This document shows positions 1,135 to 6,660 of a stretch of 39,730 nt of DNA, piece after piece (position 1 is the first letter of the stretch; the number at the start of each line of letters is the position of its first letter). The DNA lies in NCBI GenBank assembly GCA_018816705.1, contig JAHIVG010000046.1:1-39730 (forward strand). Reading direction: 5' to 3'. The notes beneath the pieces are model-generated. The model made no database searches and was not told the DNA's origin. It saw only the letters and a program-made list of their open reading frames with translations. Source of the stretch: Nanobdellota archaeon. GTDB taxonomy: Archaea > Nanobdellota > Nanobdellia > Woesearchaeales > JAHIVG01. The translations under genes and the position numbers were made by a program.

Positions 1135-1389
1135 ATGCCACGCATAATCAAGAAGAAAGGTGAATGGAAAGATAGGTCTGGCCGCGTCTTCGTTGAGAAA
1201 GCGGAGCTCTTGAAAGCATTGAAGCAGGCGGAAAGGTTCAAGGGCTCCACCAAGACCTTCCTCAGGAAGTGGGGCAACTCTACAGCCATAAGAATCCCGA
1301 AGCGCCACCTGGAGGAGATCAGGGTCAAGCAGGATGACTCAGCCTTGGTCTACACAGAAGGCGACAAGATTATCATCTCTAAAACCTGA
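1135..1389 (+). CDS. AbrB/MazE-like swapped-hairpin DNA-binding protein
   Basis: C-terminal RKWGNSTAIRIPKRHLEEIRVKQDD...GDKIIISK typical of AbrB/SpoVT/MazE domains. Confidence 0.7.
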   Translation: MPRIIKKKGEWKDRSGRVFVEKAELLKALKQAERFKGSTKTFLRKWGNSTAIRIPKRHLEEIRVKQDDSALVYTEGDKIIISKT

Positions 1390-1681
1390 AAATCCTGTCA
1401 GAGAAATCTTTTATCTTCCCATCTACAATCTCTACGCCCTCAGCCTCCAGCAGCCGCTTCTTCTCCGCAACCCCTTTGGCGAACCCGCCTAAGCTGCCAT
1501 CAGAAGCGACGATCCTGTGGCACGGCACATCCGGCCAATAAGGATTACTCTTCATGGCCATGCCCACGGCCCTATAGGCCTTCACACCAAGAGCATCAGC
1601 TATCGCTTTATAAGTAGAGACCCGGCCTGCAGGTATCTTCCTAGATACTTCATACACCCTCTCTTGGAACTCGGTTGCCAT
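1379..1681 (-). CDS. MGMT-like (O6-alkylguanine-DNA alkyltransferase, C-terminal domain only)
   Basis: PCHRIV active-site motif, GRVSTYKAIA and AVGMAMKSNP. Confidence 0.85.
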   Translation of the reverse strand: MATEFQERVYEVSRKIPAGRVSTYKAIADALGVKAYRAVGMAMKSNPYWPDVPCHRIVASDGSLGGFAKGVAEKKRLLEAEGVEIVDGKIKDFSDRIFRF

Positions 1682-2157: not shown

Positions 2158-2573
2158 TCATGGAGCTCAGCCCGGAGCAGGTATTGAAGCTGGAACAGGA
2201 AGTCCAGGCAGAATACGCAAGAAGCCGACCAACCAAAACCTACCTATGTCTAGGAGATTATCTTGCTGATGTCATGAAGGATAAACATCGTGATGTGCGA
2301 ATCCATTTCATCACCGGCCATGAACCCACCCTCGAAGAGTTAGATGTCGAAGAGGCTTTCTTTAGCAGGGAGCGTGCTGAAGGGTTCATGAATTCCTTGA
2401 AGCCGAGCATAAGATCATATTACCATCATCTCTCCGGGACAGTGGATGAGCTGGAGAATGATGGGATATGCTTTGTTGAGACAGGAGAACCGATAAGGGG
2501 CCCGCAAAGAAAGGATGTCTATCGGTGCCTGTTTGAAGAGATGCGAAAAGAATATGGTTGTTTTAGGTCTTAG
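2154..2573 (+). CDS. hypothetical protein
   Basis: ORF translationally coupled to the preceding gene. Confidence 0.6.
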   Translation: MIMELSPEQVLKLEQEVQAEYARSRPTKTYLCLGDYLADVMKDKHRDVRIHFITGHEPTLEELDVEEAFFSRERAEGFMNSLKPSIRSYYHHLSGTVDELENDGICFVETGEPIRGPQRKDVYRCLFEEMRKEYGCFRS

Positions 2574-4920
2574 TCTGTATGTATCTGTCCAGCTTGCTCT
2601 GCTCTTTCGGTTCTAGGTCCTCTGCCTTGAAGCCGATGAGGTTCATTATCTTCTCCACTGAAGGTATCACCTGGTTCTTGATGTAGTACTCGGAATCATA
2701 ATCGTCCTGTCCCACGTCTTCTGGCGGCTTGGCCCTGTCCCTTATCAGTTCCTTTCCTTTCACCACCACAAAGCTGATTATCGTGCCAGGCCCTACATCC
2801 ACTCCCTTCTCCTTGAGGAGCTTGGCAACAGCCACATGCGGACCTACTGTCTCATATGCCTCGATGCTCTTCTGCAGCTGGGTCTTTATCACAAGCTCCT
2901 CGACCTGGACCTTGTGCTGGACGAGCCTGCTTATCCTGTCCAGAACATGTTTCAATGCCTTGTCCTTGTCCTGGTGCTCTAGGATGATCTCTAACAGCTC
3001 GCGCTGGGTCCTCTTCGCGTAATCCGAGAAGTTCCTGCGCACCAGCTCGAACCCCCTTATCTTCATGGTGCCGTCTTCCCGAAGAAGGGCATACTTCTTC
3101 TTTGCTCCGAAGCCGCCTTCCTTGGCCTCGACGAAGAGGCCGGCGGGATAGTAGCCTTCCAGTTCGAGCTCCATTATGCCTGGCAGCTCCAGGTTTATCT
3201 TCTCTGCAAACCGGTCTGCATCAAGCCTCTTCTTATTGCCCAATAACAGGAAGACAGAGTCAGTATCCCCATATATGACCTTGAAGTCCTTCTTCGCCTG
3301 GTCGATGACCTTGTTGATGTACTCCCTGCCCAGCCTTGTGACCTCTCTCGCGCTCTCGAGCGAGTACCATCTCGATGCGAAGAATCCCATGTATCCGTAG
3401 AATGAATTGGCCAACAGCTTCAAGGATTCGCACCTGGCCCTGAGGAATACGCTTTCCTTATCCATTATCTTCTCTATGCGAGCCCTCCTGGTGATTATGT
3501 CAGATATGACCGATGATACGAAGCCCTTGCGCTTCTCGCAGTACCATATCTCTGAGCCCGGTTTCTCGCAGCAGCTGCATCTTTGTGTGTCAGGTCCTAT
3601 GTTGTGGCTGCTTATTATGCTCGGGTAGAGGCTGCGGAAGTCGAAGACCATGATGTCCTTGTACAGCCCTGGCTCCGGCTTCAGCACGAAGCCCCCTGCA
3701 TATGTGGCCTTCCTGCGCACCTGCACCTCAGCATGGCTGGGCCTGTTCGGTGATATCTCGTTGAACTGCGGCGCCATCCTGAGCAGGTACCATTCGACCA
3801 GCCTCGAGAACCCCATCCTCGTCACATCGAACAACGGGAGGCCGATCAGCTTCATCAGCTCTATCATCTGGGGCATCATGAGCTTTGCCAGCTGGAATAT
3901 TATTCCTGCGTTCTTCGCAGAGGCTGCGCATAGGTCTGGCAGGCTGTCTGAGTATGGCTCCTGCTTCAATCCGAGGAGCTGCTCTCCCACCGCCCCCAGC
4001 TCGAGCTCGTCCTCCTCCAATGAAGTGAACCTGTCGATGAAGTTGTGCATGTCCAGGTGCTGGATTCCGACGATGGATGCAGAGTCCCCCTTCAGCCTTA
4101 TGCTTGAGAAGTCGAGCCCCAGCTCTAGGTGTATCTTGTACTTGTCTGCCCTGGCCTGGATGTGGGGCAGGTCGAACGAGTCTGACATGTAGCCGGCCAG
4201 CACATCAGGATTCTGTGCTTCTATCGTTTCCTTGAGCTTCTCCAGCAGCGCTACCTCGCTGTCCACGAATTCTACGTAATCTGGCGGCTTGTCAAAGGTC
4301 TTCCATGTCAACACCTTATTGTATTTATCAGATTTGAGAGCTATAAGGGATATTGCGCCTGTGTCCAGGGTCTCTATCCTTATGGAGAGTATCTTCGGCT
4401 CGTGGTAGGATTCCTCTGTGGAGGCCAACAGTTTTACTGCCCTGAATACGGGAATCTTGCTCTTCTGGGTGATGAATTCGCCTTCGAAGGCTGAAAGCCC
4501 GTAAGGAGTGACGTTGTTGTCTATCAGCCATTTCCTGGCAAAGGGTATGTCATATTCATAGCAGTCCTTTACACCTATGATGCCCTTGATATGCGACTGC
4601 AGCGTGGCTATGTGGCTTGGCTGCGTAACATAGACCTTGAGAAGCTTGAGCTCCTTGCCTAGCAGCCTTTTCGTGACAGTCTCAACCTCTGTCGGCGATA
4701 TGACCTCTTCCTTGAACTCGATGCGCGCTTCCAGGATACTGTTCTTCACGGCTTCGGTCTCTGCCTTGGGTTCCGGAAGTACATATAAGTAAGGCCTGAA
4801 TCCTTCATCCAGCAGGCAGACCTGCTTCCCATCGAGCGTCCTGCCGTATGCGCTGATGATAGATTTATCGTTGACTGTCCTAAGCGTCACATCGGTCGGG
4901 AAAAACTGAAGAGTTGCCAT
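2563..4920 (-). CDS. polB: DNA polymerase family B (polymerase motifs intact, exonuclease motifs degraded)
   Basis: Motif A DFRSLYPSII, motif B KLLANSFYGYMG, motif C YGDTDS. Confidence 0.95.
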   Translation of the reverse strand: MATLQFFPTDVTLRTVNDKSIISAYGRTLDGKQVCLLDEGFRPYLYVLPEPKAETEAVKNSILEARIEFKEEVISPTEVETVTKRLLGKELKLLKVYVTQPSHIATLQSHIKGIIGVKDCYEYDIPFARKWLIDNNVTPYGLSAFEGEFITQKSKIPVFRAVKLLASTEESYHEPKILSIRIETLDTGAISLIALKSDKYNKVLTWKTFDKPPDYVEFVDSEVALLEKLKETIEAQNPDVLAGYMSDSFDLPHIQARADKYKIHLELGLDFSSIRLKGDSASIVGIQHLDMHNFIDRFTSLEEDELELGAVGEQLLGLKQEPYSDSLPDLCAASAKNAGIIFQLAKLMMPQMIELMKLIGLPLFDVTRMGFSRLVEWYLLRMAPQFNEISPNRPSHAEVQVRRKATYAGGFVLKPEPGLYKDIMVFDFRSLYPSIISSHNIGPDTQRCSCCEKPGSEIWYCEKRKGFVSSVISDIITRRARIEKIMDKESVFLRARCESLKLLANSFYGYMGFFASRWYSLESAREVTRLGREYINKVIDQAKKDFKVIYGDTDSVFLLLGNKKRLDADRFAEKINLELPGIMELELEGYYPAGLFVEAKEGGFGAKKKYALLREDGTMKIRGFELVRRNFSDYAKRTQRELLEIILEHQDKDKALKHVLDRISRLVQHKVQVEELVIKTQLQKSIEAYETVGPHVAVAKLLKEKGVDVGPGTIISFVVVKGKELIRDRAKPPEDVGQDDYDSEYYIKNQVIPSVEKIMNLIGFKAEDLEPKEQSKLDRYIQTKT

Positions 4921-4968: not shown

Positions 4969-5532
4969 CTAAGAGATATCCTTCTTGCAGCCTTGGCAGA
5001 CCATCGAGCCCTCCACTTCGAAGAGCTTTTCAGCGTAGTTTCCGCAGAGCTGGCAGTTGCCTTCGGTCTCGCGCCGCCTGAATATGGGTTTGTTCTCCTC
5101 CTCGCGGAGCTCGATCTTCTCCACCATGAGGTCAAACATCTGCGGCTGGATCTTTAGGACGTCCTTGAGGGTCAACAATCCGACGAGCTTGTCATCCTCC
5201 ACCACCGGGAGATGCCTTATGTTGAGGTCGCGCATCTCAAGCAAGGCGAAGTAGATGTCCTCATCCTCCGAGATGGTATGCAGCTTCTTGACCATGAGCT
5301 CATCCACCGTGGTCTTCTTGAGGTCAAGGCCCTCTGCGACAGCATTCCTGGTGATGTCCTGCTCTGAGATGACCCCTTTCAGCTGGTCACCTTCAGTTAT
5401 GAGAAGTCCTCCTATGTGGTTGTCCCTCATCACGGTCGCAGCTTCTATGAGAGATATGCCTGGACTGACCGTTATCGGCTTCTTGGTCATCACGTCCACA
5501 ACCTTGTAGCCCGTCCTCATTATTCCCCTCAA
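4969..5532 (-). CDS. tandem CBS-domain protein with C-terminal zinc ribbon
   Basis: Two CBS repeats (MTKKPITVSPGISLIEAATVM..., MVKKLHTISEDEDIYFALLEM...) and CQLCGNYAEKLFEVEGSMVCQGCKK. Confidence 0.88.
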   Translation of the reverse strand: MRGIMRTGYKVVDVMTKKPITVSPGISLIEAATVMRDNHIGGLLITEGDQLKGVISEQDITRNAVAEGLDLKKTTVDELMVKKLHTISEDEDIYFALLEMRDLNIRHLPVVEDDKLVGLLTLKDVLKIQPQMFDLMVEKIELREEENKPIFRRRETEGNCQLCGNYAEKLFEVEGSMVCQGCKKDIS

Positions 5533-5574
5533 CTCAGTTCCTAAGCATTTGAACTTAAAAAATCTTTCTAATTT

Positions 5575-5940
5575 TTACTGATACTCGTCATACTTGAGGT
5601 TCTTCCCCTTGACCTTCTCAGCAGGGTACTTCTTCTCTGTCAGCTCGAGCTTCTCTGCCAGGGCATGGCTCAGGTCGATCTTGGTCGAGTCTGAGAATAG
5701 CAGGAGATACGAGAGGATGTCAGCGCATTCGTGGCTTATCTCCCTCTTCACCTCGGGATCTGCCAGCATGGCCTCTATCTCCTTCTCGTCGTGCCACTGG
5801 AAGTGCTCCAAGAGCTCTGCGGCCTCAGTGCTTATCGCTATCGCCAGGTCCTTTGGGCGATGATACTTTCGCCACTCCCTTCTGTCGCGAAAGGTCAGGA
5901 GGCGGCTGCGGAGCTCGCTTAACGTTGATTTTTGGTCCAT
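5575..5940 (-). CDS. MazG-like nucleotide pyrophosphohydrolase (dCTPase/RS21-C6 type)
   Basis: HRPKDLAIAISTEAAELLEHFQW and ECADILSYLLLF (EExxE..D type MazG motif). Confidence 0.85.
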   Translation of the reverse strand: MDQKSTLSELRSRLLTFRDRREWRKYHRPKDLAIAISTEAAELLEHFQWHDEKEIEAMLADPEVKREISHECADILSYLLLFSDSTKIDLSHALAEKLELTEKKYPAEKVKGKNLKYDEYQ

Positions 5941-6544
5941 CCTTGATGGGTGTTGCTGCCTTGCTAACAGGTGTCGATATCCTGCTGACTGGTGTTGATG
6001 CCTTGTTGATATGTGTTGTTGCCCTGCTCGTCGTTCTCCTCGTGCTTGACCGGAGGAACTTCATCGGTGTCTTGTCGAGGTCGGTATAACTGTCCACCTC
6101 TTCTATAAGCTTGGATGAAGCAGACTTGCCGAAGGCTATCAGCTCGACCCTGCATCCTAAGGCCCGTCTCAGGTGCTGCACGAGCGGTATGAAGTCCCCG
6201 TCACCTGAGATGAGGACCATGGTGTCCAATTTCGGGGCCAGCTCGATCATGTCCATGGCGATGCCGATATCCCAGTCGCCTTTCTTGTGGCCTCCGGGGA
6301 AGGTCTGCAGGTCCTTTGACCTGACTTCGTAGCCGATCGCTCGCAGGGCGTCGAAGAAGTTGGCTTCATCCTTGACATCGGCCTTGATGACATAAGTCAT
6401 GGCGCGGATAAGGCTCCTTCCCTTCACCGCTTCCCTGAGTATGGCCTGGAAGTTGACCTTCTTATGGTAGAAATCCTTGGCTGAATAGTATAGGTTCTGG
6501 ACATCGACGAACACGCCGATCCTCTGATGTTTTGACTGGTTCAT
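5825..6544 (-). CDS. NYN-domain (LabA/DUF88) putative RNase with repetitive C-terminal tail
   Basis: RIGVFVDVQNLYYSAKD...VLISGDGDFIPLVQHLRRALG; start set at ATG 6544, overlapping the upstream stop. Confidence 0.85.
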   Translation of the reverse strand: MNQSKHQRIGVFVDVQNLYYSAKDFYHKKVNFQAILREAVKGRSLIRAMTYVIKADVKDEANFFDALRAIGYEVRSKDLQTFPGGHKKGDWDIGIAMDMIELAPKLDTMVLISGDGDFIPLVQHLRRALGCRVELIAFGKSASSKLIEEVDSYTDLDKTPMKFLRSSTRRTTSRATTHINKASTPVSRISTPVSKAATPIKDGPKINVKRAPQPPPDLSRQKGVAKVSSPKGPGDSDKH

Positions 6545-6660
6545 TCGTTCACCCTCAATATCGGTTCTGAGTAATTGCAGTTCCTGCATCTCAGGCTGTT
6601 CGACCCTTCGTCGAAGTACAAGCCTTGCTTGCCGCACTTCGGGCAGCGCTGCTCTTGCAT
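6541..6660 (-). CDS. 39-aa zinc-ribbon protein (MQEQRCPKCGKQGLYFDEGSNSLRCRNCNYSEPILRVNE)
   Basis: CPKCG...CRNCN; ATGA overlap with the NYN gene; missing from the ORF track because it is short. Confidence 0.8.
   Translation of the reverse strand: MQEQRCPKCGKQGLYFDEGSNSLRCRNCNYSEPILRVNE

Follow-up and report, generated by a model that had tools for sequence, protein, structure and literature searches.

Gene, protein and catalytic residues

The window, meaning the whole 39,730-nucleotide stretch of DNA analyzed, carries on its minus strand a gene for a family-B DNA polymerase of the B3 type (PolB3). Pfam matches to DNA_pol_B (E 3.5e-61) and DNA_pol_B_exo1 (E 3.6e-18) were obtained, and the closest solved structures, in sequence as well as in fold, were the PolBs of Pyrococcus and Thermococcus (33-35% identity). 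The features of the locus are listed below.

2563..4920, minus strand: window PolB3, a B3-type family-B DNA polymerase with its exonuclease site lost; a single uninterrupted 785-aa frame
3871..4428, minus strand: 3'-5' exonuclease domain (residues 165-350), fold retained and catalytic site lost (AF2 and alignment)
4369..4386, minus strand: Exo I, SIRIET, with R181 in place of Pfu D141 and E183 corresponding to E143 (alignment and codons)
4171..4191, minus strand: Exo II, YMSDSFD, with D250 corresponding to Pfu D215 (alignment)
3889..3927, minus strand: Exo III equivalent, AASAKNAGIIFQL, with A333 in place of Pfu Y311 and N337 in place of D315 (alignment and codons)
3613..3642, minus strand: polymerase motif A, DFRSLYPSII, catalytic D427, intact (alignment)
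3391..3420, minus strand: polymerase motif B, KLLANSFYGY, K501, intact (alignment)
3256..3273, minus strand: polymerase motif C, YGDTDS, D552 and D554, intact (alignment)
2578..2601, minus strand: C-terminal QSKLDRYI, resembling a PCNA-binding motif (PIP-box) and found at the same position in relatives (C-termini compared by eye)
5825..6637, minus strand: NYN-domain (PIN-like) protein, a neighbor of PolB3 in several relatives and the synteny anchor (domain match and neighborhood)

The polymerase domain match stops at residue 761 of 785, and only the PIP-like tail lies beyond it. Directly upstream of PolB3 on the same strand, positions 4969-5940 encode a CBS-domain protein and a MazG-like protein, with a possible role in dNTP house-cleaning. 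Elsewhere in the window, positions 1379-1681 (minus strand) encode a 100-aa protein that consists mainly of an MGMT-type DNA-binding domain and keeps the PCHR cysteine.

Residues were assigned from a multi-sequence alignment with relatives, as the HMMER pairwise alignment places Exo I wrongly. R181, E183, D250, A333, and N337 aligned with Pfu D141, E143, D215, Y311, and D315, respectively; three of the five catalytic positions are thus lost and two are kept. The codons at the changed positions are AGG (R181), GCC (A333), and AAC (N337); to arise from Asp or Tyr codons they need several independent substitutions, which excludes a single base error. In the aligned set of 286 rows, which takes in Pfu PolB and the second PolB of the same genome (G000), 279 read DEDYD at the five positions, four were truncated, and one each read DEVYD and DEDHD, with the window PolB3 reading REDAN. 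After removal of near-copies, 228 of 230 distinct near-full-length rows were DEDYD, the two departures being the window PolB3 and one Archaeoglobales protein (Tyr to His); these homologues were gathered by similarity to the window PolB3, so that strongly degenerate B3 proteins are under-sampled here and were sought separately. In the polymerase domain, D427, K501, D552, D554, and the Tyr steric gate were all intact, and the uracil-pocket positions were mostly kept. The earlier note had described intact motifs A, B, and C, an Exo I Asp changed to Arg, a retained Exo II Asp, and Tyr-to-Ala and Asp-to-Asn changes in Exo III, and the alignment agrees with it at each of these positions. Its description of a replicative-size PolB that would lack editing also fits a 785-aa protein of this kind. 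Judged from its sequence, the window PolB3 has lost editing selectively and kept polymerization.

Exo I contributes the Asp that bridges the two metals. An exonuclease that still works through E183, D250, and other acidic residues substituting for the lost ligands would draw on the two of four carboxylates that remain and on two Asp residues nearby in the sequence, D186 near Exo I and D329 near Exo III. However, Arg occupies the position of the bridging Asp, Exo III has lost both its Asp and its Tyr, D186 follows the Exo I strand, and D329 precedes N337 by eight residues. We regard a working exonuclease as very improbable; weak residual activity may persist, since E183 and D250 remain.

Selectivity and descent of the loss

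The exonuclease domain was further compared at 27 columns conserved at ≥90%. The window PolB3 breaks four of them (K320Q, D181R, Y333A, and D337N). K320Q is common to the intact B3 of a sister genome, G436; the other three are all among the five catalytic positions, and the 21 columns besides these five and K320 are unbroken. In the polymerase domain, two of 74 conserved positions are broken. The ratio of exonuclease to polymerase terminal-branch length was 1.41 (median, 1.07) and became 1.16 (median, 1.09; rank 29 of 68) when the catalytic columns were left out. This ordinary ratio indicates that the exonuclease scaffold is not decaying, and relaxed selection across the whole exonuclease domain is unsupported. 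The AF2 model had a pLDDT of 87.8 overall, with the exonuclease domain mostly at 80-96 per block, so that the fold is predicted with confidence.

In a tree built without the catalytic columns, the window PolB3 paired with the B3 of G436 (SH-aLRT, 99). The G436 protein keeps all five exonuclease residues, which places the site loss on the window PolB3's own branch; G436 also carries a B7 polymerase. Both proteins lack two short segments of the exonuclease domain, one following Exo I and the other preceding Exo III; these deletions therefore predate the site loss. They were considered as part of the exonuclease loss and rejected, as G436 has both together with all five residues.

The closest relatives in sequence and fold were B3 polymerases rather than B1, B2, or Pol II-like enzymes. 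The PolB-NYN (and TrxR) gene neighborhood is conserved in several relatives, and the adjoining PolB and NYN-domain genes point to an ordinary, orthologous B3 locus. Membership in B3 stands despite REDAN because tree and synteny make its descent clear, and the Exo I-III residues are typical of the group without defining ancestry. The REDAN-type enzyme was held by one genome only: no other genome sharing the exonuclease loss was found among 279 genomes sampled from the phylum, 40 of the relative set, and 353 sampled from the order, in which G000 is the sole member of its own family. In a named collection, most of the nearest records were 'Candidatus Woesearchaeota' metagenome-assembled genomes. 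Single-protein scans of genomic and viral contig collections returned no relative; an alignment-based rescan returned 80 cellular loci and viral matches that were mostly distant PolBs. A recent viral origin is unsupported, the best full-length viral match having only 28% identity.

G000 (1.74 Mb, 94% complete) is a draft in 114 contigs, and one might suspect an artefact of assembly or sequencing, or a chimera. Against this, three separate codons are changed, the frame is open throughout, all other motifs are intact, and the two short deletions recur in G436; as for a chimera, the best matches of the exonuclease part and of the polymerase part alike are B3 genes from the same order. The probability of an artefact appears close to negligible.

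Companion polymerases and degenerate PolB3 in Woesearchaeales

We examined the other polymerase and repair genes of G000. PolD is present, with phosphoesterase motifs SDLHVG, GDLVDG, GNHD, and GHIH in DP1 and DCDGDEC in DP2. A second PolB, L002, has GWN at Exo II, intact exonuclease residues, and DTDS, and it passes the NCBIfam DNA polymerase II cut-off, which identifies it as Pol II-like (B7). GWN is the mark of the Pol II-like clade, and archaeal group B7 has been described in Woesearchaeota and Pacearchaeota (PMC7544198). Exo II of the window PolB3 reads GYMSDSFD, with no GWN, which places it outside B7. These B3 and B7 enzymes are the only two PolBs of the genome, which accordingly has no PolB2. 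The earlier note had named a second, exonuclease-intact PolB or PolD as something to look for, and both are there, PolD with intact motifs. Given these two polymerases, the window PolB3 is probably accessory and not the sole replicase. NucS is also present. No Y-family polymerase was found in G000, and a search with PF00929 found no separate exonuclease of the DnaQ/RNase T type to supply editing in trans.

The lack of a detected Y-family polymerase and of PolB2 would suit a dedicated translesion polymerase, one that, like eukaryotic Pol zeta or archaeal PolB2, extends past damage where an editing enzyme idles; inactive exonuclease domains accompany translesion synthesis in both (PMC7544198, PMC12926913). 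However, 38 of the 40 genomes of the relative set (G000 included) had no Y-family polymerase, those with an intact B3 retain the editing site, no damage-response genes were identified among the neighbors, the polymerase site has no special change, and B7, related to the translesion enzyme Pol II, may already fill the role. We consider a dedicated translesion role possible though rather unlikely. The idea that missing Y-family polymerases caused the loss is itself weakened, since nearly all relatives are without them too.

Across the 40 genomes of the relative set, B7 was found in 18, B3 in about 25, and both in six; most relatives have one or the other. B7 accompanies an intact B3 in four genomes (G014, G017, G081, and G436), so that B7 permits editing loss without forcing it. 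By following genomes with weak exonuclease matches, we found B3-type proteins in which both active sites are lost in seven genomes of several families: L391 (G222), L393 (G341), L394 (G227), L397 (G123), L389 (G201), L398 (G392), and L422 (G340). These are mostly full length, and the NYN neighbor adjoins the gene in four of the genomes (G222, G341, G340, and G201). In G164, G418, and G411 the site loss was partial, and G320 and G285 each had a more divergent case. All these genomes except G285, in which no B7 was found, also encode a B7 with intact sites, the gene of G341 being fragmented. Within the relative set by itself, the association of B7 with B3 degeneration was only suggestive (Fisher p 0.09); over all genomes p was 4e-7, and by family 1e-4, but both figures are biased, since the added genomes, selected for their weak exonuclease matches, are not independent.

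Pairs of degenerate B3 genes had dN of 0.37-0.93 with saturated synonymous sites. In the pairs among G222, G341, and G340 and in G164/G418, dN was 0.37-0.67 with synonymous sites near or at saturation, which suggests that selection has kept most of the frames in these pairs open. In the tree, a single branch separated the degenerate rows from the rest, subject to long-branch warnings, and the window PolB3 stood apart from them, so that at least two loss events are needed. These both-site-lost proteins in B7-bearing genomes raise the alternative that the window PolB3 is at an early stage of the same decay, with loss of polymerization to follow and a structural role to last. However, its polymerase domain is as constrained as that of normal relatives, with the two broken positions noted above against 39-42 of 74 in the dead proteins, and the degenerate group, with which it is not grouped in the tree, erodes the polymerase domain more than the exonuclease domain. 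We judge early decay unlikely, more so than a translesion role.

Several other PolB forms were observed in the survey. The B3 of G164 (L051/L434) and that of G418 (L392/L435, spread over two overlapping frames) keep Exo I and Exo III and have lost the Exo II Asp; the G164 protein also has changes in polymerase motifs A, B, and C, which make it a near mirror image of the window PolB3. L425 (G424), L426 (G142), and L427 (G133) represent a third, PolB2-like kind with motif C HGIVDS in some Woesearchaeales. PolB3 frames of 1135-1377 aa, probably containing inteins, were found in G258 (L390, in which the polymerase match is interrupted near motif C), G345, G357, G382, G183, and G429. The G285 protein (L407/L423; 941-970 aa) is very divergent and PolB-like, with nearly all catalytic residues replaced.

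Proposed role and comparison with known systems

In the reading that we favor and consider probable, the window PolB3 is maintained as an accessory polymerase that does not edit, a state permitted by its redundancy with B7 and PolD; both its role and the causal part of B7 are what we infer. The enzyme would bind primer-template and add nucleotides, with the C-terminal motif probably holding it to PCNA. A mispaired 3' end would not be hydrolysed, owing to loss of the metal-binding Asp residues of Exo I and Exo III and of the Exo III Tyr, and the exonuclease domain would be retained as a scaffold. Fidelity would be left to PolD, with its intact DP1, and to the exonuclease-intact B7. B7, by its presence, probably rendered editing by PolB3 dispensable, and PolB3 may then have persisted in gap filling or strand displacement, or in extension that tolerates lesions. 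In Thermococcus, PolB aids Okazaki-fragment maturation by strand displacement, PolD alone can replicate the genome, and a PolB stripped of exonuclease activity by the D141A/E143A pair is tolerated (PMC13136892). A broader scheme, to which we give somewhat less credence than to its negation, is that gain of B7 in Woesearchaeales frees PolB3 for different fates: a selectively maintained, non-editing polymerase analogous to Pol alpha or Pol zeta here, and a selected, non-catalytic, full-length PolB3 elsewhere. If true, the link between B7 and PolB3 decay would make the division of labor among archaeal polymerases a comparative and testable question. As its nearest relative, G436, is intact, the window PolB3 is also a natural case in which the benefit to a replicative-type PolB of giving up editing can be tested directly.

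With the catalytic exonuclease residues absent and the polymerase site intact, the window PolB3 is predicted to be an exonuclease-deficient family-B polymerase. It has its domain order, polymerase motifs, and PIP-like C-terminus in common with archaeal PolB3 (Pfu, KOD, and 9N), and its predicted fold is nearest to these enzymes (TM ~0.85 to 9N), whereas Arg, Ala, and Asn replace the Exo I Asp, the Exo III Tyr, and the Exo III Asp. The degenerate Woesearchaeales PolB3 proteins resemble it in having an orthologous B3 locus in several cases and a B7 in the genome; they have lost both active sites, whereas the window PolB3 has lost only the exonuclease site.

Like archaeal PolB2 and bacterial G2, the enzyme has lost exonuclease residues and coexists with another PolB. 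In PolB2, however, polymerase motif C is changed to a single Asp with a conserved His and Exo III is entirely missing (PMC7544198); the window PolB3 has DTD in motif C and an Exo III helix that is present though altered, and so falls outside PolB2. The earlier note had called it the opposite of PolB2-type decay, which holds for motif C and needs the qualification that the B3 of some relatives in the order has decayed at both sites.

The catalytic subunits of eukaryotic Pol alpha and Pol zeta are family-B enzymes with a working polymerase and an inactivated exonuclease domain (PMC7544198). The window PolB3 appears to share this state, with its polymerase site intact and its exonuclease site lost, but belongs to a separate lineage and has neither the C-terminal metal-binding domain nor known subunits. 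Pol alpha and Pol zeta are thus precedents for losing proofreading while conserving the polymerase site, and PolB2 for losing it together with changes in the polymerase; neither PMC7544198 nor PMC4104785 reports proofreading loss with a conserved polymerase site in the B3 group, to which the window PolB3 belongs.
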